Origin: Mixta hanseatica
Lineage (GTDB): Bacteria; Pseudomonadota; Gammaproteobacteria; Enterobacterales; Enterobacteriaceae
NCBI RefSeq assembly: GCF_023517775.1
Contig: NZ_CP082904.1
Location: 1,674,001-1,738,000, forward strand
Reading direction: 5' to 3'
Length of the DNA stretch: 64,000 bases
Shown: positions 26,504 through 47,270 of the stretch, piece by piece
Numbering within the stretch: position 1 is the stretch's first letter
Layout: each line of letters opens with the position of its first letter
Made by a program: the position numbers and the translations under genes
Notes under the pieces: model-generated
The model's input: the letters and a program-made list of their open reading frames with translations, nothing else
Told to the model about the DNA's origin: nothing
Database searches by the model: none

Positions 26504-26579
<76 letters not shown>

Positions 26580-29840: not shown

Positions 29841-30116
29841 GTGGCTTCTGTTTCTATCAGCTGTCCCTCCTGTTCAGCTACTGACGGGGTGGTGCGTAAC
29901 GGCAAAAGCACCGCCGGACATCAGCGCTATCTCTGCTCTCACTGCCGTAAAACATGGCAACTGCAGTTCACTTACACCGCTTCTCAACCCGGTACGCACC
30001 AGAAAATCATTGATATGGCCATGAATGGCGTTGGATGCCGGGCAACTGCCCGCATTATGGGCGTTGGCCTCAACACGATTTTACGTCACTTAAAAAACTC
30101 AGGCCGCAGTCGGTAA
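29841..30116 (+). CDS. insA: IS1 protein InsA
   Basis: 91-residue zinc-finger and helix-turn-helix protein of IS1 (four Cys in [12 protein letters not shown] and LCSHCRKTW). It binds the IS ends and represses transposase synthesis; when ribosomes shift -1 at the A6C tract (30092-30098) it is extended into InsB to give the InsAB' transposase. GTG start, as known for IS1. Confidence 0.95.
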
Positions 30117-30538
30117 CCTCGCGCATACAGCCGGGCAGTGACGTCATCGTCTGCGCGGAAATGGACGAACAGTGGGGCTATGTCGGGGCTAAATCGCGCC
30201 AGCGCTGGCTGTTTTACGCGTATGACAGGCTCCGGAAGACGGTTGTTGCGCACGTATTCGGTGAACGCACTATGGCGACGCTGGGGCGTCTTATGAGCCT
30301 GCTGTCACCCTTTGACGTGGTGATATGGATGACGGATGGCTGGCCGCTGTATGAATCCCGCCTGAAGGGAAAGCTGCACGTAATCAGCAAGCGATATACG
30401 CAGCGAATTGAGCGGCATAACCTGAATCTGAGGCAGCACCTGGCACGGCTGGGACGGAAGTCGCTGTCGTTCTCAAAATCGGTGGAGCTGCATGACAAAG
30501 TCATCGGGCATTATCTGAACATAAAACACTATCAATAA
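30035..30538 (+). CDS. insB: IS1 InsB (transposase catalytic part)
   Basis: 167-residue open frame carrying the IS1 catalytic region, made as the InsAB' fusion by -1 frameshifting from insA. The [32 protein letters not shown] and [15 protein letters not shown] blocks of the IS1 DDE-type domain are intact, with no stop or deletion. Confidence 0.94.
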
Positions 30539-32212: not shown

Positions 32213-32328
32213 TAATTAAAACAATAAAAAGGAAGGGCGCAAATAGCTTTAACAATGTCGCATGATAGAATATATGCTATTGCCGTCGTTGCTATTGTTG
32301 CGGATAATTAATCTCACAGGGCGTGAAT

Positions 32329-33080
32329 ATGTATATGTATAATGATCTTGCCAATAAAATTGTGTTAGTCACCGGGGCCAGCGGCGATATTGGATTGGCT
32401 ATCTGCAGGCAGTTCCTACAGCAGCAGTGTCAGGTTTATGCCCTGTATAAGTCTCACCGCGATGGGCTAACGCAATTAAAAAGCAGCCATCCACAGGGGG
32501 AGCAGCTGCATATTATTCCGTGCGATTTAACCGATGGCACGGCGATTGAGCAGCTTTGCATCTATCTGGCTAAAACGGCGGGAAACGTTGATATTCTGGT
32601 GAATAACGCCGGCATGGTAAGAGACAGCCTGTTCGCCACTATGCGTTTCGAAGAATTCAGCAGCGTGATAGAGACTAACCTGTTAGCGCTCTTCAGGCTG
32701 ACCAAACGGGCGCTAATGCTGTTAAGAGGTTCTGAGGCGCCGGTGATTATCAATGTCACTTCGATTGCGGCGCTGGTCGCCAGTCCGGGGCAAATTAATT
32801 ACAGCACCTCTAAAAGCGCCATTTTAGGTTTTACGCGCACGCTGGCGGCGGAAATGGCGCCAGCGTGCGGGTTAATGCGGTAGCGCCCGGAATGATTGAA
32901 TCCGGCATGGTTAAAAAAGTCCCCCGGACCGTGGTAAGAGCAATGATTAACAGCATCCCGCTGAAACGGTTAGGGCAGTGCACGGAGATCGCTAATGCTA
33001 TTGTTTATTTAAGTTCGTCCGCCTCCAGTTACATTGTGGGGCAAACCCTGGTTATTGATGGCGGCCTGGTTATGCGCTGA
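32329..33080 (+). pseudogene. 3-oxoacyl-ACP reductase (FabG-like SDR), frameshifted
   Basis: Short-chain dehydrogenase split into two frames. The first (32329-32883) carries the cofactor loop VTGASGDIG, NNAGM, the catalytic Ser in NVTSIAAL and the YSTSK Tyr/Lys. The second (frame of 32865-33080) continues with RVNAVAPGMIES and ends YIVGQTLVIDGGLVMR. The shift is near 32862-32870: one base missing relative to an intact gene. Either a real mutation (most active-site residues lie upstream, but the C-terminal dimer region is lost) or a sequence error. First gene of the synthase cluster; the last base overlaps the next ATG. Confidence 0.85.
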
Positions 33081-33628
33081 TGAAGAACGATTCTATTCCA
33101 CCGCAGGTTTTTCTTGAAATGGGCGGCTGGCGGCAGCCTTTGTTAATGGTCGATCGGATTAATAATTATCAATATGGTGAAAATGGCTCAATTCAGGTGA
33201 TTAAGCATATAACCTATAACGAACCCTATATGCAGGGGCATTTTCCGGACAACCCCATTATGCCTGGTGCGATCATCGCTGAAGTCTTTGGTCAGGCAAG
33301 CGAGTACTTCTCATTCCTGACGGATATATGCGATATCTATCGTCAGCGTTATGGTGTCAAACTGCAATCGCTGCATGATATTTGCAGTGAAATCGAACGT
33401 CCGGATATGAGAGATATTATTCGCGGTCGGCGTGCCCAGGTCCAGGGCGTTTTAGCTGCGCAGAATCTTAAATTTAAAGATATTGCCTATCCAGGGGATA
33501 CGCTTGAGGTAGCAAGCCAGCTGATCTTTTCAGATAACAATGGCTTTAAACATTATTCCGTTAGTGCTCACGTTGGGAAAAGGCTTATTAGCAAAGGAAC
33601 TATTATCAATTACCGGGAAGTAAAATAA
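33080..33628 (+). CDS. FabA/FabZ-like 3-hydroxyacyl-ACP dehydratase
   Basis: 182-residue hot-dog-fold protein. Catalytic His54 lies in QGHFPDNPIMPG and the acidic partner Glu68 in IIAEVFGQ, as in FabZ. It would remove water from a 3-hydroxyacyl-ACP. It is somewhat longer than housekeeping FabZ (about 150) owing to an insertion around residues 80-115. TGATG overlap with the reductase indicates translational coupling. A specialised cluster enzyme rather than the primary FabZ (inference). Confidence 0.85.
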   Translation: MKNDSIPPQVFLEMGGWRQPLLMVDRINNYQYGENGSIQVIKHITYNEPYMQGHFPDNPIMPGAIIAEVFGQASEYFSFLTDICDIYRQRYGVKLQSLHDICSEIERPDMRDIIRGRRAQVQGVLAAQNLKFKDIAYPGDTLEVASQLIFSDNNGFKHYSVSAHVGKRLISKGTIINYREVK

Positions 33629-33648
33629 TAACAATTAGGAAAATTATT

Positions 33649-33942
33649 ATGGAAGATATGCAGAAAGATATAGCCGAGCGTAAAGCGATCCTGCTCACCC
33701 TTAAAAAAGAAATCATTCAACGTTTAAATATTCAACGTGAACCCGGCCAGATTGATGATGATACGCCGCTGTTTGGCAATGGTTTGAAGCTTGATTCAGT
33801 GGATGCGACAGAAATTCTGGTACTGCTTGATAAGGTTTTCGATGTTCAGATCAGCGAAGGTGACGATCCTGCATTTATGCGCACTCTTAATAATCTGGCC
33901 TCTTTTATTATTCAGAAAACCAGAGCCGTCAAACAACCCTAA
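33649..33942 (+). CDS. Acyl carrier protein of the cluster
   Basis: 97-residue acidic carrier protein. The phosphopantetheine attachment Ser50 is in LKLDSVDATEIL, the equivalent of the DSL motif (here DSV). It is the only carrier protein seen in the cluster. Good AGGA ribosome-binding site. No phosphopantetheinyl transferase is present nearby, so a housekeeping one must act. Confidence 0.88.
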   Translation: MEDMQKDIAERKAILLTLKKEIIQRLNIQREPGQIDDDTPLFGNGLKLDSVDATEILVLLDKVFDVQISEGDDPAFMRTLNNLASFIIQKTRAVKQP

Positions 33943-33965
33943 CAACAAGTGACCAGGAAATCGAC

Positions 33966-35123
33966 ATGACCGTGCTTCATGACTTGCATTTAGCTAATCA
34001 GGCCAGAATGGGCCGATATAATCATAAAGACGTGCCTGCTTCTTATCACGAGTCAGCCTGTGAGTACCGGGCCGTAAGAGAAAATGCGCTGTTGGTTGAT
34101 TACTCGCATATGTCGATTGTCAGCGTAATGGGCGAGGATGCCTGGGTACTGGTGAATTACTGCGTTTCTGCTGATGTGGCTGCCCTGCGTGATGAACAGG
34201 CGCTTTATTCACTGATGCTGGATGAAAAGGGCATGCTACAGGGAGACCTTTATATTCTTTGCACTGAAGAGGGTTATTACCTGCTGACGGAAAATATGTC
34301 CTGCGCGCAGGTTATCGCCTGTTTACAACAGGCGTTACAGATGGCTGAGGCGCTGGATATTCAACAGGCGCCGCAAATCAACGCGCTGGATGAAGCGGGG
34401 TGGGGCGCGGTGTTGCTGGAAGGGCCATACTCGTGGGAAATAGTGGCAGAAATTTACGGTTTTGATGTTATCGGTTTGCCCTACCATGAATTTATGCCTA
34501 CCTCTGACGATCTCATCCTCCTCCGCTGCGGTAAACATGGCGAATATGGCTATTTAATGGTGGGAGAGCAAAGCGCGCTGGCAGCGCTGTGGCTAAAACT
34601 GCTCAAAGCCGGCGAGAGGTTTCAGTTGAAAGCGGGCGGCCTGGATTATCAGCAAATCGTCAGGATTGAAAATCCCTGTTGGGACGCCCGCAGCATGAAC
34701 GAGTGGCGTAATCCCGTTGAGCTGCAGCTGCAGTGGGCCATTGATTACCATAAAGAGGACTTTATTGGGAGATCGGCGGTTGAGGCGATCTCTCATCACG
34801 GCGTCACGCGTAAGCTTATCGGCATTATTCCGCAAGAAGAACGCGCGATAATCAGCGCCAATGATCGGGTGCTGATCGAGAAGCAAGAAGTGGGGAAGAT
34901 TATAAAAAGCATTTATTCGCCTGCCCGAGACGCTTTTATTGCCCTGGCGATGATCGATACCGCCTGGGCCTGGTCCGACATTTCAGGGTTTAGACTGCAA
35001 ACCGCGCAGGGCAACATTGCGGCGATGACGCAAAATCTGCCTTTCCTTTATAACCTCAGTATGCGGGTAAGCCCAACGGAACACAGTTTTACTGATGCCG
35101 CCAAACGTCGCTATACGGAATAG
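33966..35123 (+). CDS. GcvT/YgfZ-family folate-binding protein (aminomethyltransferase-like)
   Basis: 385-residue protein with the fold pattern of glycine-cleavage T protein: N-terminal ENALLVDYSHMS, central SLMLDEKGMLQGDLYIL (one of the two Asp of the GcvT DD motif kept), RIENPCWDARSMNEWRNPVEL, and C-terminal KLIGII...GKIIKSIYSP barrel. In a synthase cluster it may transfer or remove a one-carbon group on the product or on an amine starter. It is not part of a gcv operon, and substrate is unknown. Confidence 0.75.
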   Translation: MTVLHDLHLANQARMGRYNHKDVPASYHESACEYRAVRENALLVDYSHMSIVSVMGEDAWVLVNYCVSADVAALRDEQALYSLMLDEKGMLQGDLYILCTEEGYYLLTENMSCAQVIACLQQALQMAEALDIQQAPQINALDEAGWGAVLLEGPYSWEIVAEIYGFDVIGLPYHEFMPTSDDLILLRCGKHGEYGYLMVGEQSALAALWLKLLKAGERFQLKAGGLDYQQIVRIENPCWDARSMNEWRNPVELQLQWAIDYHKEDFIGRSAVEAISHHGVTRKLIGIIPQEERAIISANDRVLIEKQEVGKIIKSIYSPARDAFIALAMIDTAWAWSDISGFRLQTAQGNIAAMTQNLPFLYNLSMRVSPTEHSFTDAAKRRYTE

Positions 35124-35231
35124 CGGATAAGGCCGTAAGCATTCCGCGCGTTATGCGGGTCATAGATTAATTAACAGCCGGGCATGGCCTGGACGCCAAC
35201 GCTGATGACGTTATTTTCGTCAGGGATGAAG

Positions 35232-37799
35232 ATGAAAAACCGAAAAAGAGTGGTTATTACCGGCATGGGGATATTGTCGCCGCTGGCTGATAATATCGTG
35301 GACTTTCGCCAGGCTTTATTCGCTAAAAAATGTGCGATTACTGACAGTCAACGCTTTTCCCGCTGGTTTCCCCATGCCCGTGCGGCGGAAATCCTTTATG
35401 CAGGAGGGTATCCTGAGCTTTCAGAGCAGATTATCCAGTCACTCGATAACGCTGCGCTCTGGGCCTATAAGGTGGGCAAAGAGGCGCTGACGCAGGCCGG
35501 GCTGGTTAGCCATCGGGCGAGCCTTGAAGAAACCGGGCTGATAATTGGCGTCTCCTCAGCCGGAACCGAGGCTTTTCTGCCGCTCTTTGAGCGGCGCATT
35601 CAGGACTTCTCGCTGGCAAAAGCGATCTATTCCGGCGGTTTTTCCTCCTGCTGCGCCAGCGTCTCCAGTCTGCTGGGTCTGAAGGGCGGCTTCGAACTGG
35701 TGGCGACGGCCTGTACCGCCAGTCCCAATGCTGCAGGCATGGCGTATGACGCTATCCAGAACGGCAAAAGCCCAATTATGCTGGTTGCGGGAACCGAGCC
35801 AATTTATTTACCTACCTTTGCCGGCTTTTATGCGCTTAACGTCATGCACCCTGAGTCCTGTACCCCTTTTTCCGGTACGCCAGGCATGTCTATCGGCGAA
35901 GGGGCTGGCGCATTAGTGCTGGAGGAGTACCAGCATGCGGTTGATCGTGGCGCAACCCTCTATGGCGAGATCTTGTCCTACGCTACCTCCTGCGATGCTT
36001 ATCATGAAACCGGACCGGATCCGCGCGCGGGCGGAGCGGTACAGGTCATGTTAAAAGCGCTACGCAATGCCGGCATTGCGCCGGAGCAGGTCGATTATGT
36101 GAACCTTCACGGCACGGGCACCGAGGCCAACGATCGCATTGAAACGCTGGCAATGAAAAAAGTATTCCCACAGAGCGCCAGCCTGCCCGTTAGTTCAACC
36201 AAATCCTGGTTTGGCCATACCATTGGCGCAGCGGGCATCGTGGAGTTAATCGCCTGTCTGGTGACGTTACCCGCCCAGAAGATTTTGCCGACGCTGAATT
36301 TTGGTACGCCGCGCGCAAATTGCGACCTTGATTACGTAGCGAATGATTTTCGCCAGCAACAGGTCAATATCTTCGTCAAAAATAGCTATGCCTTTGGCGG
36401 CAATAATTGCAGCCTGGTGCTCAGTATGCGGCCCGCATCGTTACCCGTCAGCCTCTGTCGGGAAAAACGCGTCGTTATTTCCGGCGCCGGCGCGGTGACC
36501 GCTATCGGACACTCGCTCAATGAGATGCTGGAGGCTATCTGGAATAATCAACAACCCGCGACGCTACAGCCGGTGGTGTTTCATCAGGAGACGCTGGCGG
36601 AGGTAAGGGCGCTGCTTGACGTGTTGCGTGCTACCCGGCAGTTTGAAACCGTGCTGGGTTATGGTTGGCCTGATGTCGCTCCGCTTTTACCGCAGCAGGC
36701 CGAAAACTTTAACACCTTCCAGGTCATCGGGCTGGAGCCGCGCAGGCATCTGCGCCGTTACGATCAACGTAAGGCGACGCGTGGCGGAACCTTTGCGCTG
36801 ATTGCACTCTCAGCGGCATTAGCCAGCGCCAGGCACAAAATCAAAAAAGATGGCGATGAGATTGGCCTGATTATGGGCATGGCGCGCGGCCCGCAGGAAA
36901 CCACCTGGAAATATCTGCAAAGCTTGCAACCCGATCCGCGCAAGGTGCGCACCGCCGAATTTCCCGGCTCGTTAATGAACGCGATGACCACCTTTTGCGG
37001 CATCTCCGCAGGCATCAAGGGCTATACCACCACGCTGGCCACCGGTGAGAACGCCGCGCTGGGCGCATTGACCTATGGCTATGACATTATACGTCAAGCC
37101 CTTCAGGCGCAGGTGATGGTGGGCGGCGCGGACGAGCACTTTCCTTCCATGGCGCTCTATATGGACGCCATCACGCAAAAGCTGCAGATGACCGCGGATG
37201 CAGCGGATTATCAGGTTTACGCGTCAGCGCCGCGGGGTTTTGTGCCGGGGGAGGGTGCCTGCATGCTGTTACTGGAAGCGCCGGAGAGCGCCGAGGCCAG
37301 AGGCGCGGCTGTACTGGCCGAGATCCTGAGTTATGGTAAGTCATGCAGCAACAGCTATTTTGCGGCGGATCGACTAAGCGAGCAAACGCAGGCGATGGCG
37401 CTGGCGATCGGCAGAGCCCTGGCCGATGCCGGAATAACGGCGAAAGATATTGATGTGGTCTGCGGCGGCAGCAACGGCAGCCAGCATCATTCCCAGGTAG
37501 AAATTGACGCTATCTGGCAGGTATTTCAACAGGAAAAGCCGCAGGTGCCGGTGGTGAACTATAACGCCTTTTTTGGCTTTGTCGCTTCCTGTGCCGGATT
37601 GCTGAATCTGGCGGTGCTGATTGATTGCTTCAGGCAGCAGCGTGTTCCCGCCATCCCTCATACGCAGTGGTTTTGCGACTCTCGCCTAAACTTTGTCCGG
37701 GAGCCGCTGCGATTGCCGCTTCAGCACGCTTTATTGCTGGGGTCAAACGAAGCCGGCAACTACTATGCCCTGGTTATTAAAGGAGGGCAGCCTGGATAA
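35232..37799 (+). CDS. Fused ketosynthase / chain-length-factor-like protein
   Basis: About 855 residues made of two thiolase-fold KS domains. Domain 1 (about 5-410) is a complete ketosynthase: Cys161 in TACTASPN, His293 in NLHGTGTEAND, Lys324 and His329 in TKSWFGHT. Domain 2 (about 415-850) starts again with RVVISGAGAVTAIG but has lost the triad: TTLATGENAALG replaces the Cys motif, GGSNGSQHHS replaces HGTGT, FGFVASCAG replaces GHTxGAAG. This is the pattern of a chain-length factor (KS-beta), usually a separate gene. ATG 35232 is chosen for the AGGG spacing; 35226 is possible. Confidence 0.88.
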   Translation: MKNRKRVVITGMGILSPLADNIVDFRQALFAKKCAITDSQRFSRWFPHARAAEILYAGGYPELSEQIIQSLDNAALWAYKVGKEALTQAGLVSHRASLEETGLIIGVSSAGTEAFLPLFERRIQDFSLAKAIYSGGFSSCCASVSSLLGLKGGFELVATACTASPNAAGMAYDAIQNGKSPIMLVAGTEPIYLPTFAGFYALNVMHPESCTPFSGTPGMSIGEGAGALVLEEYQHAVDRGATLYGEILSYATSCDAYHETGPDPRAGGAVQVMLKALRNAGIAPEQVDYVNLHGTGTEANDRIETLAMKKVFPQSASLPVSSTKSWFGHTIGAAGIVELIACLVTLPAQKILPTLNFGTPRANCDLDYVANDFRQQQVNIFVKNSYAFGGNNCSLVLSMRPASLPVSLCREKRVVISGAGAVTAIGHSLNEMLEAIWNNQQPATLQPVVFHQETLAEVRALLDVLRATRQFETVLGYGWPDVAPLLPQQAENFNTFQVIGLEPRRHLRRYDQRKATRGGTFALIALSAALASARHKIKKDGDEIGLIMGMARGPQETTWKYLQSLQPDPRKVRTAEFPGSLMNAMTTFCGISAGIKGYTTTLATGENAALGALTYGYDIIRQALQAQVMVGGADEHFPSMALYMDAITQKLQMTADAADYQVYASAPRGFVPGEGACMLLLEAPESAEARGAAVLAEILSYGKSCSNSYFAADRLSEQTQAMALAIGRALADAGITAKDIDVVCGGSNGSQHHSQVEIDAIWQVFQQEKPQVPVVNYNAFFGFVASCAGLLNLAVLIDCFRQQRVPAIPHTQWFCDSRLNFVREPLRLPLQHALLLGSNEAGNYYALVIKGGQPG

Positions 37800-39021
37800 C
37801 GCAGCGATTATTGCCGGTTACAGCCTCTGTTTGCCGTTCGCCAGCAGCAGCGATGAGCTGATCGCCAATCTACGGCAGGGAAAGCAGGTGGCGACCAGCG
37901 GATGGTTTGCTTCTGATGCTGAGGCCATCAAAGGCGGATTTAAAAGAAACCGGCGTTTTGCGCGACTGCCGCCGGCGAAAGAAAGTGTGTTTGAGCGGCT
38001 GTCGCAGCTGATTGACAGCGCGTGTGAACAGGCGCAGCTGGATAAAAGCTCTCTGGCAGGGGATAACGTTCGGGTTTATCTGACCGGCCTGGGGCCAAGG
38101 GTGGATGCGAAGGCGTATAAATCTTTCTATGATCGCAACGATATCGACGATCTTAAGCTTACGCCATCCGTCACGCAGCTACAGGTAGCGAACATGTCGC
38201 AGGATCGGCTGGCGCATCAGCTAGCGCAAAAATATAGCCTGCGCGCCCTGCCGCCTAACCTTAACTGCGCGAGCAACTCCTCGCTGGCGGCGGTACATAT
38301 CGGCTGTCAGGCGATAGAAAAGGGCGGTGCCGATCTGATCGTGGTGATCGGCTGTGCCGAAATTAAGACTCAGGATTTATGGTTTCTGGAAAGCCAGTCG
38401 ATGCTGGAAAGCGAGGTGGCGCAGCCTTTTGGCATCCACAGCAAAAGCGTGCTGTTTGCCGAGGGATTATGCGTCATGCTGCTGGAAAGCCGTCGCCACC
38501 GCCATGCCCGGCAGCTTAGGGCGGGCATTCAGCTACGCTCGGTGTACAGCCAGATTGGTGCCAGCAGAAGTTATGATGCGGCTTATTTAGCCGCCAGTCT
38601 GTTCAGGCTGATGAAAACAGCGCTGCGTCAGGCTGACGTTGCGCTGACGGACCTGTGCGCGATTATGCCCCATGGCAACGGCGTTGAAGCCAGTGATAAA
38701 GCTGAGGCGCAGGCGCTGACGCTGTTATTAGCGGATGCGGCGATCCCCGTGCTGGCTTATAAAGGGCAGACAGGCTATACCGCCACCGCCTCCGGCGTGG
38801 TTGATTTAATTATTGCGCACCACACCTTAACCCAGCGCGAGCTGATTCCGGCACGCGCGAATGACGCCATAATAAAAGAACTGGCGCCCTGTCTGCTTAC
38901 GGATGGGCAAGTGGTAAAACATCATCAGTCTCATCTGTTGAAAACCGGCGTAAGCGTGGACGGCGCCCTGATCGCGGTGGTGTTATCTGATGATGCCCAG
39001 CGGGAGAACAGAGATGAATAA
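37765..39021 (+). CDS. Ketosynthase-like protein with altered active site
   Basis: About 418 residues, beta-ketoacyl synthase fold. Cys168 in NLNCASNSSLAAV and His303 in MPHGNGVEASD are kept, but the second His is Tyr338 (YKGQTGYTATASG). Such a change may alter decarboxylation or turn the protein to acyl transfer or priming (inference). Start is uncertain: the ATG at 37765 overlaps the preceding gene by 35 bp, while a perfect AGGAGG lies 5 bases before an in-frame CTG at 37792 that would give the usual N-terminus. Confidence 0.8.
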   Translation: MPWLLKEGSLDNAAIIAGYSLCLPFASSSDELIANLRQGKQVATSGWFASDAEAIKGGFKRNRRFARLPPAKESVFERLSQLIDSACEQAQLDKSSLAGDNVRVYLTGLGPRVDAKAYKSFYDRNDIDDLKLTPSVTQLQVANMSQDRLAHQLAQKYSLRALPPNLNCASNSSLAAVHIGCQAIEKGGADLIVVIGCAEIKTQDLWFLESQSMLESEVAQPFGIHSKSVLFAEGLCVMLLESRRHRHARQLRAGIQLRSVYSQIGASRSYDAAYLAASLFRLMKTALRQADVALTDLCAIMPHGNGVEASDKAEAQALTLLLADAAIPVLAYKGQTGYTATASGVVDLIIAHHTLTQRELIPARANDAIIKELAPCLLTDGQVVKHHQSHLLKTGVSVDGALIAVVLSDDAQRENRDE

Positions 39022-39997
39022 TCTTTGGCTATCCTCTTTCTGCCTTATCGAGCCAGAAGATCAATTTTATCTCTATTACCCCAGTTGGCTGAACGTTTGG
39101 GAGTCGCATCTTTATAACCGGGCGATAAAATCAACCCATGCGCAAGGGTGGTATTTCAAACGGTTTGGCTGTGATAACGCCCTGTATGAGCGGGAAATGA
39201 TCCGCAAGCCAGCCTATATAAAATATATCGAAGCGATGGAACAGGCGGCCGATCGGGCTTTACTGCAGCTGACGGCGAAAGAGCGCATGCGGTTAATGAA
39301 ATCGCGTACCGCCTTTATTTACGTTGACGCCTGGGGCGAGTCAGGACTGTTTGAGAATATCAGCAGCGCTCTGCATGTAGCGACGATCGATACGCTACCG
39401 AAAAATCTGTTGAAAAAATTCTCTGTCAAGGCATTCACCTGCAAAGTGCGGGGAGAGCAGCACGGCTTTATGCAGGCGCTGAATATGGCGCAGGATTACC
39501 TTAACTGGAATGTTTTCGATTTTATTGTCATTTGCGCCGCTTATCGCGCCATCCCGCTATTGGTTTTTTCCGCGGCGGAAAGCGTAGCTGAAAATAACCC
39601 GCGCGATTTAAAAATGAATATATCAGTCGAGCGCGTGGGCTGCTTTATTTTTAGTCAGCGAGAAAGCGCTCTGCAGGTAGAGTGCGGCCAATATATGGTT
39701 CCCGCCACTAACGCATTCACCGTTAACCGCCTGTACGACGACAATGCCGTGATTACTCATCTGGCCATTGCCGGGTTAAGTCCTGGATGGCTTTATCCGG
39801 CGCGGGCGGATAAACAGAATGCAGCGGCGCCGGAAACGTTCAGTCTGAGCGAAAAGTATGGCGACAGCGGCTGCCTTTCTCCGGCGCTGAGCTGGATTTA
39901 TCTCGAAAATCACGCCGCCGCTGCCGTAAAAATGCGCACGGTTATGCCCGGTGCGCTGGGCAGCTATCACTATTTCGATACCCGATATCAGACTTGA
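39014..39997 (+). CDS. Unknown protein, possibly degenerate ketosynthase-like
   Basis: 327 residues, no family recognised with certainty. Two stretches resemble worn KS motifs: AFTCKVRGEQHGFMQALNMAQDYL (position of the Cys helix) and KYGDSGCLSPALSWIYLE (position of the GHTxGAAG helix). If so, it is a third non-standard KS of the cluster. No signal peptide. The start at 39014 overlaps the previous gene by 8 bp; open frame extends upstream but has no better site. Soluble, probably cytoplasmic. Confidence 0.5.
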   Translation: MNNLWLSSFCLIEPEDQFYLYYPSWLNVWESHLYNRAIKSTHAQGWYFKRFGCDNALYEREMIRKPAYIKYIEAMEQAADRALLQLTAKERMRLMKSRTAFIYVDAWGESGLFENISSALHVATIDTLPKNLLKKFSVKAFTCKVRGEQHGFMQALNMAQDYLNWNVFDFIVICAAYRAIPLLVFSAAESVAENNPRDLKMNISVERVGCFIFSQRESALQVECGQYMVPATNAFTVNRLYDDNAVITHLAIAGLSPGWLYPARADKQNAAAPETFSLSEKYGDSGCLSPALSWIYLENHAAAAVKMRTVMPGALGSYHYFDTRYQT

Positions 39998-40007
39998 GGG
40001 AATAAGG

Positions 40008-40706
40008 ATGACCAGTAATATCCGAGAACTGCCGGTTATCGCGTTAAGCGGAGTGAATAAAAGCTATGGCCGCAATGAAAACAGCGTTGCGGCGTTAAAA
40101 GCGGTAAATATAGAGGTGGCGCACGGTGAGTTTATTGCCCTATGCGGTCCTTCAGGTGCCGGGAAAAGCACGCTGCTGAACATTCTATCTGGCATCGATC
40201 GGCCAGACAGTGGAACGATAATGTTCTTTGGCAAGATGCTTACTGCACTTAGCGAGCAACAGCTCGCTGTTATCAGAAGCCACTATCTGGGCTTTATTTT
40301 TCAGGCATTTAATTTGATTCCGGTGCTGAATGCGCTGGATAACGTTTGCTATCCGCTGCTGCTTAACGGGCACTGCCGCAAAAAAGAAGCCAGAGCGCGA
40401 GCGCAGCATTATCTCGACAGTGTCGGACTGGCGCAGTTAGCAGATCGCAAGCCGGGACAGCTTTCGGGCGGGCAGCAGCAGCGGGTCGCTATTGCCCGGG
40501 CGCTGGTACATCAGCCAAAGCTGGTGGTTGCGGATGAGCCGACGGGTAATCTCGATTCAGCAACCAGCGAGGCGATACTGGATTTGCTGCTTGATATCAA
40601 TCAGCAAACCGGCACCGCTTTTATTATTTCAACGCACTCTGCGCAGCTAAAAGCGCGTGCCGGGCGGAGCATCGACATCAGGGATGGGCAGATCGATGAG
40701 AATTAA
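40008..40706 (+). CDS. ABC transporter ATPase, LolD/MacB type
   Basis: 232-residue ATPase. Walker A GPSGAGKST, Q-loop FQAFNLIP, signature LSGGQQQRVAIARAL, Walker B LVVADEPTGNLDS and switch His in STHS are all present. MacB/LolD-type proteins work with FtsX-like permeases in mechanotransmission, moving lipids or lipoproteins out of the inner membrane without a transmembrane channel. Pairs with the permease 636 bp downstream. AAGG site before ATG. Confidence 0.92.
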   Translation: MTSNIRELPVIALSGVNKSYGRNENSVAALKAVNIEVAHGEFIALCGPSGAGKSTLLNILSGIDRPDSGTIMFFGKMLTALSEQQLAVIRSHYLGFIFQAFNLIPVLNALDNVCYPLLLNGHCRKKEARARAQHYLDSVGLAQLADRKPGQLSGGQQQRVAIARALVHQPKLVVADEPTGNLDSATSEAILDLLLDINQQTGTAFIISTHSAQLKARAGRSIDIRDGQIDEN

Positions 40707-41346
40707 CAGCTGGCTGTTTTGCTGGATCGGGCTGATGGCGGGTTTAACCACGCAGGCAGCCAGCCTCGCTACGCCACCGCAGGTAGAAAAAGTGCTTCAG
40801 CACTCGTTCCCCGTCAACAGAGCCGAGCTACAGGCTCTGACAGAGGCGCTGTGGACGGAATACCAACAGCAGCAAAATATTACCTCATTAATTTTCTACG
40901 CCTACGGAACGCTGAGGCTGGCGGAGCAATTTACTGCTGAAAATGATGTGGTCAGGGCCGCTGAATATGCCCGGACCGGATTTTTTTATCTCGACGAAGC
41001 CGCAGAACGTTATGAGAACGATCCGCGTGTACGTTATTTAAGAGCCAGAGTTGACGCCTTTCTGCCCGCTGCCTCTGGCCGTTGTGTTATCGCGTTGAAC
41101 GACACGCAATTTATCCTTGATGCTGCCGTAACGTACCAGAGCGCTATGCTCAGCAAGATTATTTATATGCGTTACCGCGCGTTGAAGAATTGCCGTCAAT
41201 TTAAGCAGGCGGCAGCCTTGCTGACCCGGCTAAAGCAGCAGAATCCCTCTTTATCTTCCGTTGTTTTAACGTCAGATGCTGCGCCTGAATGGGATAGCAG
41301 CGAAACGACGCAAATCCTGCTTCCTTTAGCCCGGGGAAAGGAATGA
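40696..41346 (+). CDS. Exported helical protein of the transporter operon
   Basis: 216 residues with a signal peptide (about 1-23, ending TTQAAS), then a mostly helical, TPR-like sequence (FYAYGTLRLAEQF, AAEYARTGFFYLDEAAERY, KQAAALLTRLKQQNP). Starts inside the ATPase gene end (11-bp overlap) and its stop overlaps the permease start, so the three are coupled. Probably a periplasmic accessory protein of the exporter; no family named. Confidence 0.6.
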   Translation: MRINSWLFCWIGLMAGLTTQAASLATPPQVEKVLQHSFPVNRAELQALTEALWTEYQQQQNITSLIFYAYGTLRLAEQFTAENDVVRAAEYARTGFFYLDEAAERYENDPRVRYLRARVDAFLPAASGRCVIALNDTQFILDAAVTYQSAMLSKIIYMRYRALKNCRQFKQAAALLTRLKQQNPSLSSVVLTSDAAPEWDSSETTQILLPLARGKE

Positions 41347-42650
41347 GCGCTACTGCAAGCCTTATTGTCACCGCGCTTATCGCGAGCCTGGTAGTTTATT
41401 GCATGCTGTGCAGCTGGCAGATAACCCAGTTCGCGCTGTTGAATCTTTTTCGACATAAGCGGCGTTCATTTTCTACGCTAACGGCAATGGTCATCGGCGG
41501 CGTGGCCATTTTTACCTGGGGCGGATTTATTGATTACGCCTTCTGGATCCTGAAAGAGCAAACCATCAGGATGAATGTAGGCCATCTCCAGCTTTATCAT
41601 CCGCTCTGGTTCCAGACATCGAATAAGACCCTGAGTTTGATTAAAGATTACCCCACGCTGAAGGCGCAGATAGAAAACCAGCCAGAACTGGCGGAGAAAA
41701 TTGCCACGCTATCCGGGCAGCTGGCGTTCACCGGCGTTATTTCCCACTATGAAAATGAAACCTCAGGCTATTTTTCTGCGTTGGGCATCGAGCCGGTGCC
41801 GGCGCTCAAACTCGGATCTTTCGAGAAAATGCTGTCGGGCAGCGATCTGTCACGCATTAAAAAAGAGGAGATCACCCTGGGCAGCGGTTTGGCCGCCACG
41901 CTTAACGCTCATTATGCCGACTGGCTGGATTTGATGGTGGTTAACAGCAGCGGCGGACAGGGGGCGCTCTCGTTAAAAGTGCGCGGCATTTTTTCCTCTG
42001 GTATGAAAGATTACGATGACGTGGCAATAAAGGTGCCGTTGGTTACCGCCCAGCGCATCATGGGCACCCAGGGCGTCAGTAAAGTGATCATTTTATTAAA
42101 AAATGATGCCGATCTTCCGGCGTTTCGCGCCCGTTTGCAGCAATGGATCGAGGAAAAAAATCTGCCGTTAACCATTCGCAGCTGGAAAGACGTCTCGCTG
42201 TTTTATCAGCAGGTTGAAGGCCTGCTTTCCGGCATCTATTTCTTTATTCGGGCTATCGTGGCGCTGATGGTTATTTTTATGATTAGCAACGCTATGGCGA
42301 TGAATATCGTAGAGCGTACCCGAGAAATCACCACCTTGCGCGCCATTGGCCTCAGACCGGCTCATATTACCCGCCTGTTTTTGTTGGAGGGCATCTTTAT
42401 TGGCGGCCTCGGTGGGATGGGTAGCCTGCTGGCGGGGTTCGCTCTGGCCGGGCTGGTTAACCTGCAGGGCATTGCCATGCCGCCTTCCCCCGGGCAAACC
42501 CACGGCTATATTGCCTTTATCAAAACGGACAGCCCGGAACTGTACGCCGCAACGTTTTTTTTGCCGGTGCTGACCGCCGCGCTGGCCGCTATTTTGCCTG
42601 CCATCCGGGCATCGCGTTTAAACATCGCCGACGCGTTTAAATACAGCTAA
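41343..42650 (+). CDS. FtsX-like ABC permease (MacB/LolC type)
   Basis: 435-residue permease with one N-terminal transmembrane segment, a large periplasmic domain (about 60-285) and three C-terminal segments. The FtsX motif region is clear: ISNAMAMNIVERTREITTLRAIGLRP followed by LFLLEGIFIGGLGG, and a closing LPAIRASRLNIADAFKYS. Only one permease is present, so it should act as a homodimer with the upstream ATPase. Confidence 0.9.
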   Translation: MSATASLIVTALIASLVVYCMLCSWQITQFALLNLFRHKRRSFSTLTAMVIGGVAIFTWGGFIDYAFWILKEQTIRMNVGHLQLYHPLWFQTSNKTLSLIKDYPTLKAQIENQPELAEKIATLSGQLAFTGVISHYENETSGYFSALGIEPVPALKLGSFEKMLSGSDLSRIKKEEITLGSGLAATLNAHYADWLDLMVVNSSGGQGALSLKVRGIFSSGMKDYDDVAIKVPLVTAQRIMGTQGVSKVIILLKNDADLPAFRARLQQWIEEKNLPLTIRSWKDVSLFYQQVEGLLSGIYFFIRAIVALMVIFMISNAMAMNIVERTREITTLRAIGLRPAHITRLFLLEGIFIGGLGGMGSLLAGFALAGLVNLQGIAMPPSPGQTHGYIAFIKTDSPELYAATFFLPVLTAALAAILPAIRASRLNIADAFKYS

Positions 42651-42660
42651 AGGAAGAGAG

Positions 42661-43431
42661 ATGAAAAGGGCAAGGATTGCCGTATGGATTTTCGTCAGTG
42701 GGTGGGCCAGCGCCGCGCCGCCGTCGGCGCTGGAAATTATTCGGCGGGCGGATGAAGTACGCTCTCCTAATAAGCCTTTCCGCTATACCGTAACCATAGA
42801 GGAATATAAATCGACAGCGTCGCAGCCAACCAGTAAACAGATACTGGATATCTCGATGCGCTTTATCAAGCCGGAAAAGGATAAGCAGGCGGATGCGCGT
42901 TCTCTGGTGCGCTTTGTCTGGCCTGCACGCGACCGGGGGAAAAGGATGCTGTCGAACTGGTACCAGCTTTGGTTTTACACGCCTGAGCTGCGTCGGCCGA
43001 TTCCCATCTCGCCTCAGCAAAGATTGCTGGGGCAGATCGCCAACAGTGACGTTATCGTCACTAACTTTGAATATGCCTATCATGCCGAACGGTTGAATGA
43101 CGCGCCCTGTGGAGAAACCTTTTGCTACCGGCTGGCGCTAACAAGAAAGCTTCCTGCCGCCACCTGGCCCAAAATAGTGTATTGGGTGGAGAAGGGCGGT
43201 GACTATCGGCCCTGGAAAGCAGCCTACTATTCACTGGATGATAAGTTAATTAAGCAGGTCCTCTATCAGAACTATCAGCCGGTATTAGGTAGAGCAAGAC
43301 CGACAAAAATTGTGGTACAGGATCTCCGCCACGGCCAGGCTTATTCGGTAATGGAATACAGCGATATTCGCTTTGAATCTCTCCCCGACGCTTATTTCAC
43401 CAAAGCCTGGCTCCAGCGGGGAGGGCAGTGA
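42661..43431 (+). CDS. LolA-like outer membrane lipoprotein-sorting family protein
   Basis: 256-residue exported protein (signal about residues 1-19) of the LolA-like family annotated as outer-membrane lipoprotein sorting. Features are ALEIIRRADEVRSPNKPFRYTVTIEEY, MRFIKPEKDKQ, and FEYAYHAERL with a Cys pair (CGETFC). Members often sit beside FtsX-type permeases and are thought to carry a lipidic cargo across the periplasm. AGGAAG site 6 bases before ATG. Confidence 0.82.
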   Translation: MKRARIAVWIFVSGWASAAPPSALEIIRRADEVRSPNKPFRYTVTIEEYKSTASQPTSKQILDISMRFIKPEKDKQADARSLVRFVWPARDRGKRMLSNWYQLWFYTPELRRPIPISPQQRLLGQIANSDVIVTNFEYAYHAERLNDAPCGETFCYRLALTRKLPAATWPKIVYWVEKGGDYRPWKAAYYSLDDKLIKQVLYQNYQPVLGRARPTKIVVQDLRHGQAYSVMEYSDIRFESLPDAYFTKAWLQRGGQ

Positions 43432-44792
43432 TGGCGGGAATAGCCCGGCCGCAGTTGGCGCTCTTATTGTTTCCGCTCCCGCTGGCGGCGGATTGTCAGC
43501 CGCAGGCTGAGGTAGCGCTTTATGCACAGCAGGCCTGGACGCACAGAAGTGCTTCCCGCTGGCAAATAGGGCAGAAAAATCCTTACCGGGTGGATAACGG
43601 CATAAGCGATCTGGCTATCAAATACGCTAATCGCTGTGAGTTAATTGCCAACGTACTCAGCGCGGATCTATCGCTGGTGGGATTAGCTTATTATTCCTGG
43701 CGCAGGCCAGGCGATTTTGAAAAAGATCGCGGCCACGCGCGGGCCCTGTTTCATCGGCTAAGCCTGGCTTACCAGCTGTCAGCGATGCTGTTGCTCAGCG
43801 CCGGTAAATTCAGCGCGAAACCGGGACTAATTTATATAAAATCGCCTGCGGACCTGCTGCGTAATTACGATGTCGGCTTTAAAATGGGTAGAATTTACCA
43901 TCCGACGCTACAGACAAATTATTCCGATGCCGCCTGGGGAATAAAATTATCAGCAGAACAGCCTGACTACGGCTGGTCTTTTACCGCTGTACCGCAGCTA
44001 ACGCGCATTAATCGACGTGATGAATCATCCAGTGACTGGCCTGCTATTCAACGTTCCAACGCCAGCGGGCGCTATCTGTTTTCTTATAGCGATTATCGCC
44101 TGCCCGGCCATCTGCCCGCGGTAAGCTTGCGGCTGGGCGATAGCCCAGCGCTGGCCGTCGCCGACAGTTTTTATCCTGCACCACAATGGCTCCTTAACGC
44201 CGAACTGGCCTGGCATGCTAAACAGCAGTGGCGTCATTTCATGGATGCCTGGGCTGAACAGGTAGAAAACTACGCCTTTCCCAACGCGCTTTTTCAGCGC
44301 ACCCGCCAGCAAGGCATGGAACTGGCGTTGTCGGCGCAATATAGCAACCAAAGCTTCAGCCAGTTTGGCGTGGAATATTATTTCCAGAGCGAAGGCTATT
44401 CGCGTCAACAGTGGCGCAGGCAGGCAGCGTTTATTCGTTATCTGCATCAGCACACCGGATATGCTTCGTTAGATGGCGCCCGGAACGCCTATAAATATTT
44501 AATGGCGGCAGAGATAGATAATATTGCCAGGCAGGGCAACCTCCAGGGAAAACATTACCTCAATACCTATGCCACGTTGATGATGGCCAATGATGCCAGC
44601 CTGCGCGCCTATAGCATTGTTAATCTGCAGGATAAAAGCGCGCTGCTGGGTTTACATATGAATCAACCGCTGACGTCGGCGGGAATAGATATTTATGGTG
44701 GAGCTTATGGCACACAGGGAAGCGGCAACACGGAATTTGGCCTGTTTGGCAAAACGGCAGGAGTTTACGCCGGGATTAAATATTATTTCTGA
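43431..44792 (+). CDS. Putative outer-membrane beta-barrel protein
   Basis: 453 residues. Signal peptide (about 1-20), then alternating amphipathic strands rich in Tyr, Trp and Ser/Asn, and a terminal strand ending in Phe (GVYAGIKYYF), the signature recognised by the BAM complex. No family is recognised. Following the LolA-like gene, it may be the outer-membrane receiver or exit of the product. Start overlaps the previous stop as TGATG; GTG at 43428 is an alternative. Confidence 0.7.
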   Translation: MAGIARPQLALLLFPLPLAADCQPQAEVALYAQQAWTHRSASRWQIGQKNPYRVDNGISDLAIKYANRCELIANVLSADLSLVGLAYYSWRRPGDFEKDRGHARALFHRLSLAYQLSAMLLLSAGKFSAKPGLIYIKSPADLLRNYDVGFKMGRIYHPTLQTNYSDAAWGIKLSAEQPDYGWSFTAVPQLTRINRRDESSSDWPAIQRSNASGRYLFSYSDYRLPGHLPAVSLRLGDSPALAVADSFYPAPQWLLNAELAWHAKQQWRHFMDAWAEQVENYAFPNALFQRTRQQGMELALSAQYSNQSFSQFGVEYYFQSEGYSRQQWRRQAAFIRYLHQHTGYASLDGARNAYKYLMAAEIDNIARQGNLQGKHYLNTYATLMMANDASLRAYSIVNLQDKSALLGLHMNQPLTSAGIDIYGGAYGTQGSGNTEFGLFGKTAGVYAGIKYYF

Positions 44793-44801
44793 GAAAACAT
44801 A

Positions 44802-45722
44802 ATGGATATAGACAGTCAACAACGGCCTGCGGCATTGGTTTTTGCCGGGCAGGGGAATCCCGCTATCGGTATGGGGGCCGATCTCTGGCAGGGGAATCAA
44901 CGTATCCGCAGGATTTGGGATTGCGCCAGCGATATTTCGGGTATCGATATTCGTCGGGTTTGTTTAACAGGTCCGCTGAATAAGCTGGTTCAAACCCCAG
45001 TACAGCAGCTTGCCGTCACGGCAATCAACCTCTCTTTTTATACGCTGCTACAGGAAAAAGGGGTAAATATTAGCGTTTCCTGCGGCCATAGCGTGGGTGA
45101 GTACAGCGCCCTGTATGCCGCAGGCGCTATTCAGCTGGAAACGCTGTTCACGCTTATTCACTTCCGCGCGGCCACCATGCATGAGCTCAGCAAAAAATAT
45201 AAGGGTTCTATGCTGGCGATAAAGGGAATGAACGTTCTCACCCTGCGTGAGGTGCTTGTTGACTGTGCGTCTGAGCTGGATATCAGCTGTGATAACAGCT
45301 GCCGTCAGCAGGTGGTTGGTGGAACAACCGCTGCGTTAAGCGCGTTTACACGGCGTACCCGCTGCGCGACGATCAGGTTGGGAGTGAGTGGAGCCTGGCA
45401 TACCCGGCTGATGCAGGAGGGCGTTCAGCCGATGCGCGATTTTCTTGCTGCGCTGGCTATCAGACAGCCCCAGCATCAGGTGTTAATGAATGTCAGTGGG
45501 CAACCTGAATACAATCCGGCGGCCATCCGCGAGAATTTGTCACTGCATCTGACCCATACCGTTAGGTGGACGGATACGCTCACGCATCTGTTAGCCAGAG
45601 AAAATCCACCGTTGCTTATCGATATCAGCCATAAAGCCTGGCTGGCATTGTTGCTAAACGACTTTCCTGATTTCACGCCGCAGCGGTTATTACACTGCAG
45701 AAATATCCTGGCAAGGCAATGA
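44802..45722 (+). CDS. Malonyl-CoA:ACP transacylase (FabD-like)
   Basis: 306-residue acyltransferase. FAGQGNPAIGMG start, nucleophile Ser97 in CGHSVGEYSALYAAG, Arg122 in FRAATM for the malonyl carboxylate, and His200 in SGAWHTRLM are all in place. Loads malonyl units on the cluster ACP. A second, cluster-owned copy besides the housekeeping FabD expected elsewhere. No stop or gap. Confidence 0.9.
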   Translation: MDIDSQQRPAALVFAGQGNPAIGMGADLWQGNQRIRRIWDCASDISGIDIRRVCLTGPLNKLVQTPVQQLAVTAINLSFYTLLQEKGVNISVSCGHSVGEYSALYAAGAIQLETLFTLIHFRAATMHELSKKYKGSMLAIKGMNVLTLREVLVDCASELDISCDNSCRQQVVGGTTAALSAFTRRTRCATIRLGVSGAWHTRLMQEGVQPMRDFLAALAIRQPQHQVLMNVSGQPEYNPAAIRENLSLHLTHTVRWTDTLTHLLARENPPLLIDISHKAWLALLLNDFPDFTPQRLLHCRNILARQ

Positions 45723-45729
45723 GGCCGTT

Positions 45730-46731
45730 ATGATCCCTGATTATCTCACTTTCATTCGCTATCAGGACAAAAGATTACTGCCTTTTATTTACCTGACATT
45801 TTTCGTGGTGTGGGGACTGTTCTGGAAAAATAGCGCTTATTCACTTACCCCACAGCATGCGGGATCGCTCAGCGCCATTCTGGCAATAGTGCTGTTCTAT
45901 CTTATTTATGATTTAAAAGCGTACTGGATGTACAGGGGCGCAATCAAGAATGTCGATCTCAGCTGCTTTAGCGGCAAGAAACTTTCCGCAACGGAAAGCT
46001 TTTTGGCCCGTCCGCTGGTGACATGTGCGGTTAGCGCACTGGTCTGCTGGACAATCGTTTATTGGGGGTTAGCGTTAGCGGAAAGCCGCTATGCAATCTT
46101 AGCCCTCTATAGCCTGCTGCCCTTACTGGTATACCTGATATATCGGGGAGTGCGATCGGTTTATATTAGGCAGTTAGCCCACATCACACGGCAGAAAATA
46201 CGGCATCGTACGCTTTATCACTACCTGAGCGGCTTTATGTTAATGAACAGCGCGTTGAATGTATTGACGGTCAGTCCGCTGGAAAACCACCCCGATTTTT
46301 CCCTGCATCACGGCTGGGCATCACTAAAGCTTACGGTGGCAATGTTTATTTTGTGCATGGTGGTGTTAGCTATCAGCCTGCTTTTTGCCCGTCTGTCAAA
46401 GAAATCTGCTTTCCTTGGCAAACTGTTTTTGCGGGAGATCGATTTTTCCTTTTCAACGACGATGCCTTGCGCTGCGCTGCAGGCGAAACCGCTGGCTGTG
46501 CGGCTGGTTTTTTTTGCCCTGTTACAAATGCTGTGGATTGCTTTTATCAATGCGCTGTTGGCCTTGCTGGCATGGAGCCTGCCGTTTAGCCTGTACTTCC
46601 TGGTCTGTTATCTGCCGGCAAGCTTCTGTTATTTACTGCATCTCTACTGGCAATGGCATACAGATTTCCTGACCGCCTGTGATATGTACTTGCGTTGCAG
46701 TGAGATCGATAAGCGGGCCAGTCTCTGGTAA
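45730..46731 (+). CDS. Integral membrane protein of unknown function
   Basis: 333 residues with about seven to eight hydrophobic segments (for example FIYLTFFVVWGLFW, LSAILAIVLFYLIYDL, LTVAMFILCMVVLAISLLF). No family motif recognised. It is the last gene of the cluster, 7 bp after the transacylase, so clearly co-transcribed. Might modify, glycosylate or transport the product; this is not visible in the sequence. Confidence 0.6.
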   Translation: MIPDYLTFIRYQDKRLLPFIYLTFFVVWGLFWKNSAYSLTPQHAGSLSAILAIVLFYLIYDLKAYWMYRGAIKNVDLSCFSGKKLSATESFLARPLVTCAVSALVCWTIVYWGLALAESRYAILALYSLLPLLVYLIYRGVRSVYIRQLAHITRQKIRHRTLYHYLSGFMLMNSALNVLTVSPLENHPDFSLHHGWASLKLTVAMFILCMVVLAISLLFARLSKKSAFLGKLFLREIDFSFSTTMPCAALQAKPLAVRLVFFALLQMLWIAFINALLALLAWSLPFSLYFLVCYLPASFCYLLHLYWQWHTDFLTACDMYLRCSEIDKRASLW

Positions 46732-47098: not shown

Positions 47099-47172
47099 GG
47101 CGCGTTGGCAGAGTGGCCATGCAGCGGATTGCAAATCCGTCCACCTCGGTTCGACTCCGGGACGCGCCTCCA
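47099..47172 (+). tRNA. cysT: tRNA-Cys (anticodon GCA)
   Basis: 74 bases with encoded CCA. Acceptor GGCGCGT pairs with ACGCGCC, the anticodon arm CGGATTGCAAATCCG carries GCA, and the T-arm is CGGTTCGACTCCG. Directly followed by leuZ, as in E. coli. Confidence 0.97.
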
Positions 47173-47183
47173 CTTTACACCCT

Positions 47184-47270
47184 GCCCGGGTGGTGAAATC
47201 GGTAGACACAAGGGATTTAAAATCCCTCGGCTGTATGGCTGTGCGGGTTCAAGTCCCGCCCCGGGCACCA
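47184..47270 (+). tRNA. leuZ: tRNA-Leu (anticodon UAA)
   Basis: 87-base class II tRNA with encoded CCA. Acceptor GCCCGGG pairs with CCCGGGC, the anticodon arm AGGGATTTAAAATCCCT carries TAA, and there is a long variable arm. It is 11 bases after tRNA-Cys and shares its precursor. Confidence 0.97.

Follow-up and report, generated by a model that had tools for sequence, protein, structure and literature searches.

The stretch of DNA analysed here (hereafter the window) comprises 64,000 nucleotides from Mixta hanseatica (RefSeq assembly GCF_023517775.1, contig NZ_CP082904.1, positions 1,674,001 to 1,738,000, forward strand), and it raises the question of what is made, and for which destination, by a close-packed array of type II fatty-acid synthase (FAS) or polyketide synthase (PKS) genes that continues directly into genes for an ATP-binding cassette (ABC) exporter. 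Comparison with other genomes established that this array makes up the 3' portion of a longer operon, conserved with 17 genes and damaged in this copy, of which the window holds 16 genes and a remnant of acpS, and which begins with a two-partner secretion (TPS) pair, tpsA and tpsB. We give an even chance to a reading in which the operon encodes its own type II FAS/PKS for building an acyl chain, that chain is likely exported as a membrane lipid by a Lol-like route to the outer membrane, and the lipid acts together with a TpsA fibre secreted through TpsB.

An initial annotation, made from the sequence alone, had described fourteen co-directional, mostly overlapping genes as a possibly undescribed chain-building cluster coupled to a Lol/Mac-like exporter. 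Those fourteen genes are real (32323-46731, plus strand, close-packed or overlapping, with a split ketoreductase counted as one), Pfam profiles support the ketoreductase (KR), dehydratase (DH), acyl carrier protein (ACP), fusion of ketosynthase (KS) and chain-length factor (CLF), second KS, malonyl-ACP transacylase (MAT), ABC ATPase, FtsX permease and LolA-like protein that it named, and its picture of a coherent type II FAS/PKS and Lol-like export unit was supported. Its list was incomplete in lacking TpsA and TpsB, AcpS, the GcvT-like identity of the protein encoded at 33966-35123, a fourth KS-fold unit (the degenerate ketosynthase at 38990-39997) and the damage suffered by this copy; the operon starts upstream, at tpsA, and its last gene encodes a YcdU homologue. 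The complete order is tpsA, tpsB, acpS, KR, DH, ACP, GcvT-like, KS-CLF fusion, second KS (KS3), degenerate KS (orf335), ABC ATPase, periplasmic protein, LolE/LolF-like permease, LolA-like carrier, predicted barrel, MAT and ycdU-like gene. Because this gene order recurs across many genera, and because the ratio of nonsynonymous to synonymous substitution rates (dN/dS) between the window and Mixta theicola is 0.08-0.29 in 14 genes tested, all with intact frames (the KR and ycdU-like genes lay outside this test), the cluster is far beyond what chance would assemble.

The description of the cluster as new had to be given up. Escherichia coli O157:H7 Sakai carries the same 17 genes in the same order as ECs_1282-ECs_1298, largely in O-island 47, at 40-80% protein identity to the window, and a tblastn search with all window proteins was colinear with that strain (the AcpS query was that of Rahnella, the window having the remnant only). 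Unlike the window copy, the Sakai copy has all 17 frames open and no IS1, and it is located between pga/ycdT and the SpLE1 element, in a stretch where a gene for a phosphodiesterase, grvA and a cluster of fimbrial genes are found as well. The locus is therefore not new as a locus, having already been annotated; what stands of the claimed novelty is that its product and mechanism, for which no paper was found in the open-licence PubMed Central literature, appear uncharacterised and its function unexplained in the literature searched. New here are the extent of the operon, an exchange of an enoyl reductase (ER) for TpsA, a second KS-fold pair and the origin of the K-12 genes ymdE and ycdU.

Features of the operon and its borders in the window (aa, amino acids; fractions are the sequences that keep the stated residue or change)
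Feature	Coordinates	Strand	Basis or remark
tRNA-Gly	26504..26579	+	Left island edge; ARAGORN
tpsA, 888-aa exoprotein, TPS domain and haemagglutinin repeats	27076..29742	+	Pfam PF05860, PF05594
IS1 (InsA/InsB frames)	29841..30538	+	Between tpsA and tpsB; Pfam; not between them in M. theicola (L026)
tpsB, ShlB/FhaC-type outer-membrane secretor with POTRA domains	30572..32212	+	Pfam PF03865, PF08479
acpS (holo-ACP synthase) remnant, most of gene deleted	32243..32296 (approx.)	+	tblastn
KR (FabG-like), frameshifted	32323..33080	+	Pfam adh_short; catalytic S/Y/K in 50/50 relatives
DH (FabZ-like)	33080..33628	+	Pfam PF07977 (FabA/Z-like); H54/E68 in 51/51
ACP	33649..33942	+	Pfam PF00550; attachment Ser in 49/49
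GcvT-like protein of the folate-domain family, usual catalytic Asp missing	33966..35123	+	Pfam PF01571/PF08669; Asp replaced in 52/52
KS-alpha fused to KS-beta (CLF-like)	35184..37799	+	C177/H309/H345 in 50/50; KS-beta Cys to Gly in 50/50
KS3, non-canonical ketosynthase-like	37771..39021	+	Frame open from 37693; choice of start codon uncertain
orf335, degenerate protein of ketosynthase fold, may partner KS3	38990..39997	+	No Pfam match; assigned by fold
ABC ATPase (LolD/MacB type)	39951..40706	+	Pfam PF00005
Predicted periplasmic protein, family not recognised	40657..41346	+	No Pfam match; signal-like N-terminus read by eye
FtsX-type permease (FtsX/MacB_PCD), closest to LolE/LolF	41343..42650	+	Pfam; PDB search
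LolA-like periplasmic carrier	42661..43431	+	Pfam PF17131 LolA_like; PDB 3buu E 3e-38
Predicted outer-membrane barrel, no known family	43428..44792	+	Aromatic C-terminal residue; weak strand periodicity, z 1.8
MAT, K-12 ymdE homologue	44802..45722	+	Pfam PF00698; S97/H200 in 12/12; tblastn to ymdE 50%
YcdU homologue, predicted integral membrane protein	45730..46731	+	59 homologues including E. coli YcdU; 41% to K-12 YcdU
tRNA-Cys/tRNA-Leu	47099-47270		Right island edge

Domains were called by Pfam profile search of the cluster proteins, with E<=0.01 for statements of absence. Discrete KS, CLF-like partner, ACP, KR and DH, with conserved active sites (that of KR being intact only in relatives), place the operon among type II PKS/FAS systems, and the family has two further features: a probable second pair of KS-fold proteins, and a folate-domain protein that lacks the catalytic Asp of GcvT. 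The latter belongs to the folate-domain family (Pfam PF01571, 130 bits; PDB 1yx2, E 8e-37) and scores under the NCBIfam GcvT cutoffs; the first position of its DD motif, which in E. coli GcvT is Asp97 and which we take to be the catalytic residue, is G, T, S, A or L in all 52 sequences, and a true aminomethyltransferase is ruled out by that missing Asp. KS3 is invariant at His301 and Tyr336 (50/50) and variable at the Cys position (Cys in 28 of 50). Its neighbour orf335, for which a PDB sequence search with its alignment gave no match at E<=1, was later resolved by fold comparison as having the thiolase/KS fold; a 38-row alignment (A2) of this protein has no Cys or His among its invariant or 90% columns, residues that were compared by column and not superposed on a KS active site. 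In several loci of the wider family (L033:14325-15086, also L055, L056, L058, L070 and L078, of group B, which lies outside the groups A and C described below) an additional open reading frame (ORF) of about 250 residues stands between orf335 and the ABC gene, and that of L033 has no Pfam match.

The export proteins suggest a lipid cargo. The permease was closest in the PDB to LolE (E 6e-12) and LolF (5e-11), matched MacB weakly as well (E 2e-7), and had an NCBIfam lolCE score (85.5 bits) under the cutoff; together with the LolD-like ATPase and the LolA-like carrier it constitutes, by sequence, a Lol-type exporter, one with a single FtsX-type gene in the cluster in place of a LolC and LolE heterodimer, and its cargo would be a lipid. 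The predicted barrel has no Pfam match, and a PDB sequence search with it returned nothing at E<=10. The YcdU homologue yielded a confident helical AlphaFold2 model (predicted local distance difference test score 88.6) that has no PDB fold match at E<=0.001, the best being 0.8. At the other end of the operon, an exoprotein with a TPS domain is paired with a ShlB-type secretor with POTRA domains, as in two-partner secretion, and TpsA is predicted from these domains to be secreted via this TpsB; Pfam found no C-terminal effector domain in TpsA.

To establish the distribution of the system, one genome per species was scanned with the alignment of the GcvT-like protein, which gave 51 named loci spread over Enterobacterales, Pseudomonas, Paraburkholderia and a Desulfatitalea. 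A core tree of the 49 rows with all three genes (built by a quick method, with support from the Shimodaira-Hasegawa-like approximate likelihood-ratio test, SH-aLRT, only; L051, L072-type gaps and others were dropped) placed Mixta theicola and M. tenebrionis as the named rows nearest to the window, and recovered three sets that had been distinguished by gene map. Group A, whose 22 named loci are from Enterobacterales apart from a single Acinetobacter record, shows the 17-gene layout to the limit of the flanks, with tpsA in 21 of 22 and tpsB in all 22 (in two frames in L050), in front of acpS and KR. In group C, with five loci (Proteus, Providencia, Morganella), tpsA is present and an adjacent tpsB, the LolA-like gene and the barrel are missing. 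Within the flanks of the remaining 24 loci, which come from Serratia, Erwinia, Cedecea, Paraburkholderia, Pseudomonas, Desulfatitalea and others, there is no tpsA. Several particular records were also noted: two tandem tpsA genes precede tpsB in Tenebrionibacter (L039:199-6237) and in an Enterobacteriaceae metagenome-assembled genome (L053:197-6193); the four Morganellaceae loci L066, L068, L074 and L076 have tpsA without an adjacent tpsB, and tpsB-like genes elsewhere in their genomes; and the record named Acinetobacter sp. ANC 4558 (L038) carries a group A operon otherwise found in Enterobacterales, through either transfer or a misassigned contig.

Groups A and C together form one side of a branch with an SH-aLRT of 100, and two features of gene content change across it. 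TpsA is present in 25 of the 26 assessable A and C loci (21 of 22 in A, four of four in C) and in none of the 24 others, whereas an ER resembling FabL is present in all 23 assessable other loci and in none of the 27 of A and C. These counts hold within flanks of up to 10 kb a side; the first leaves out L072, whose contig starts at GcvT, and the second L084, which ends inside GcvT. A protein was scored as an ER relative when it lay nearer to the ER of L057 or the Desulfatitalea copy than to the KR of the cluster; the extra short-chain reductase of L057, the sole member tested, has FabL as its best PDB match (3oic, E 2.7e-36; next 3.3e-25), and group A clusters that can be followed through ycdU in annotated records have a single short-chain dehydrogenase/reductase inside the cluster. 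The presence of TpsA and the absence of the ER thus coincide on one branch, which is a correlation, with one event each, and not proof of a functional link. Within group A, TpsA and TpsB distances correlate with enzyme distances (Mantel r 0.70 for TpsA and 0.78 for TpsB, with 0.75-0.90 for the other genes of the operon; none of 2000 permutations as high; operon genes only), in a test of 19 of 23 rows, window included, from which L043, L045, L051 and L053 were dropped for an incomplete gene.

An alternative is that TpsA (or TpsB) carries the chain in covalent linkage, to anchor or decorate the adhesin, and that the enzymes, the exporter and the two TPS proteins constitute a single system for protein acylation. 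The confinement of TpsA to one side of the branch, and its retention in nearly all loci there, would fit, as would the four cluster TpsAs that were checked, which are short and have no C-terminal effector domain found by Pfam, and the four Morganellaceae genomes searched, in which the TpsA of M. theicola finds its best match, over nearly its full length, in the cluster TpsA. In those same genomes, however, other TPS proteins show higher identity (up to 47%) over the 300 N-terminal residues, and two internal stops are flagged in the Providencia match. No acyltransferase-like gene was gained with TpsA, no Cys is invariant in TpsA (that of L043 has none at all), and, because the ER clade has the same enzymes and mostly the same exporter with no TpsA in its flanks, the product evidently has a use without TpsA. 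We regard such acylation as unlikely.

The operon also occurs on plasmids and islands, and it is often lost. In Mixta it sits between tRNA-Gly and tRNA-Cys, and in a comparison of seven relatives (G001-G007) four (G001-G004) have a cluster adjoining the tRNA-Cys/Leu pair, two without it (G006, G007) have 41 and 52 bp between tRNA-Gly and tRNA-Cys, and one (G005) has there a 1.15-kb scar formed by the ends of tpsA and of the ycdU-like gene (L104:1703-2855). Direct repeats sought at the island ends gave chance-level matches only. Plasmid copies have the same layout: one in Rahnella, with a shortened KS-fusion frame, and one on Enterobacter bugandensis pEC105227L (L021:4758-27668), which lies between two IS6-family transposase genes of the same protein accession and is arranged like a composite transposon. 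Occurrence on plasmids and islands, together with the weaker match of the permease to MacB, could suggest that a soluble secondary metabolite is exported by a MacB-like tripartite pump, with TpsA as incidental island cargo. Such an arrangement is distinctly improbable: the permease is closest to LolE/LolF and is accompanied by a LolA-like carrier, which is typical of lipid or lipoprotein sorting, the cluster has no MacA-type or TolC-type Pfam match, and tpsA and tpsB distances track those of the enzymes.

The window copy itself has been damaged. In M. theicola the frames of KR and acpS are open. In addition to the IS1 insertion, the window copy is about 300 bp shorter than that of M. theicola at acpS, most of which is gone, leaving a C-terminal remnant at the expected position (tblastn with residues 104-121 of Rahnella AcpS, 56% identity, E 0.026), and a short out-of-frame deletion, again relative to M. 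theicola, splits KR into two frames (32323-32883 and 32865-33080); this copy therefore has neither an intact acpS nor an intact KR. For the pathway to work in this strain, housekeeping FabG, plus either AcpS or the Sfp-type phosphopantetheinyl transferase of a separate aryl polyene (APE)-like cluster, may have to stand in. It is only slightly short of an even bet that the locus in this strain is a decaying relic without function, which would be compatible with the explanation preferred for the family. The three lesions argue for decay, and loss of the cluster is common, because E. coli K-12 retains only ymdE-ycdU and the Mixta relative G005 only its scar. Against decay, the 14 genes compared with M. 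theicola have intact frames under the low dN/dS given above (an average over the whole divergence time), housekeeping enzymes might substitute for what is lost, and the KR frameshift may conceivably be an assembly error.

The E. coli copies connect the operon with genes that have long been annotated. The 2001 genome paper on strain EDL933 reportedly assigned to O-island 47 an adhesin together with the biosynthesis of a polyketide or fatty acid. An excerpt of a later paper terms the island 'adhesin and fatty-acid biosynthesis' (PMC5567499), and an excerpt of another gives it as z1528-z1556, 31,727 bp, with grvA as z1531 (PMC8565820). Judged by the position of grvA and the length of the island, the operon up to MAT would lie within O-island 47 of EDL933; the terminal 3' segment of MAT, along with ycdU, is present in K-12 too. 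Other genes of the island, vmpA and grvA, have been studied (PMC8565820 being one source), and deletion of the whole island raised type III secretion (PMC3378721), an effect not assignable to this operon. Among 5426 complete E. coli genomes, 367 hold a place that covers 80% or more of the 20.3-kb E. coli cluster, 367 cover 80% or more of its tpsA, and 2652 match the cluster in some part; these counts were made with the E. coli copy as query, the Mixta KS gene finding nothing in E. coli genomes by megablast. Matches to ycdU occur in 2646 of 5426 genomes and to ymdE in 2608 of 5426. In K-12, ymdE corresponds to the final 303 bp of MAT in Sakai (98.4%), ycdU is 98.6% identical to its Sakai counterpart, the other operon genes are absent at the locus, and IS3D lies beside the ymdE-ycdU remnant. 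Both genes were reported as uncharacterised, and the pair was discussed as a mastitis-linked core, with no tie to a pathway in the excerpt available (PMC4951805). Two unexplained K-12 loci thereby gain an origin, and a long-annotated part of O-island 47, functionally unexplained as far as our searches went, is tied to a wide family.

Under the preferred reading, in which a lipid made by the operon acts with the TpsA fibre, AcpS would arm the ACP, MAT would load malonyl groups, and KS-alpha/CLF, KR and DH would run iterative cycles with no dedicated enoyl reductase; because the TpsA clade has none, its product is probably more unsaturated (polyene-like) than that of the ER clade, unless host FabI fills in. 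KS3 and orf335 may pair as further KS-fold proteins that prime or transfer the chain and do not condense, the GcvT-like protein may act as a folate-dependent tailoring enzyme or accessory factor, and YcdU in transferring the chain to a lipid or in helping to translocate it. The ABC-FtsX pair would then extract the lipid, the LolA-like protein carry it and the barrel place it in the outer membrane.

Several observations weigh against this scheme. No characterised homologue exists for YcdU, for the periplasmic protein or for the barrel, and the barrel was assigned on weak signs; group C, with its reduced layout and a permease of only 28-29% identity, indicates that the export route is not universal; and the window copy has lost acpS and an intact KR. 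The partnership with TpsA is loosened by L045, which has no tpsA, by E. coli O158:H23 (L086:12242-28526), which retains acpS to ycdU with no tpsA and with tpsB as a pseudogene (an operon decaying from its 5' end), and by the Mantel correlation of TpsA, the lowest of the genes tested, in an analysis run with no control gene from outside the operon. The direction of the exchange, and with it the choice of the older state, hangs on a root placed on L077/L080, two rows that the tree does not unite on one side of a branch. Finally, loss of the cluster ER does not prove unsaturation, because the housekeeping enzyme FabI may take part, and the cispentacin pathway does employ FabI according to an excerpt (PMC10698177). 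A more far-reaching version, to which we give roughly one part belief to three of doubt, holds that a branch of an old Gram-negative lipid PKS lost its ER and gained a secreted fibre, that a polyene-like outer-membrane lipid is the anchor or partner of TpsA, and that K-12 ymdE/ycdU is the stump of that system. If true, O157:H7 and many enterobacteria would possess a protein-lipid surface system, in which the exchange of ER for adhesin is predicted to have changed both the lipid and its use.

Among known systems, APE clusters (ApeA-R) were a point of reference for the initial annotation, which judged the locus to resemble them in logic and to lack an ammonia-lyase, AMP-ligase, thioesterase, glycosyltransferase and MMPL exporter. 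No match to any of these was found inside the cluster, and its distinctness from APE clusters was upheld. KS-CLF, KR, DH, ACP and a LolA-like carrier are common to both; as listed in an excerpt of one source (PMC8253772), APE clusters further have an acyl-ACP synthetase, thioesterase, acyltransferases and a resistance-nodulation-division (RND) exporter, and the operon has no acyl-ACP synthetase, thioesterase, acyl- or glycosyltransferase or RND pump, and adds the GcvT-like protein, KS3, orf335, ABC-FtsX and TpsA/TpsB. Membership is ruled out by these missing components (Pfam of the 14 genes) and by the separate APE-like cluster of the same genome (G000:C1:78000-91400; L034:1-13339), identified by reading its ORFs, in which two KS genes were matched and whose Sfp-type phosphopantetheinyl transferase might arm the ACP of the operon. 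A pathway to an aryl-polyene-type pigment, with starter activation supplied from outside the cluster, would suit the shared parts and the absence of an ER in the TpsA clade; the same missing components, the GcvT-like and two extra KS-fold proteins and the presence of a second, APE-like cluster make it very improbable.

The remaining likenesses are partial. The ACP, DH and KS genes give weak NCBIfam matches to the type II PKS of cispentacin (AmcB/E/F), a PKS of that type being ruled out by scores that all fall far under the curated cutoffs. With LolCDE/LolF and MacB exporters the cluster shares a LolE/LolF-like permease, an ABC ATPase and a LolA-like carrier, and it differs from them in having one permease gene and an extra barrel and periplasmic protein. 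With FhaB/FhaC and ShlA/ShlB it shares a TPS domain and a ShlB-type secretor with POTRA domains; unlike those pairs, the tpsA and tpsB of this family are co-inherited with a lipid or polyketide pathway, and in group C tpsA stands without an adjacent tpsB.

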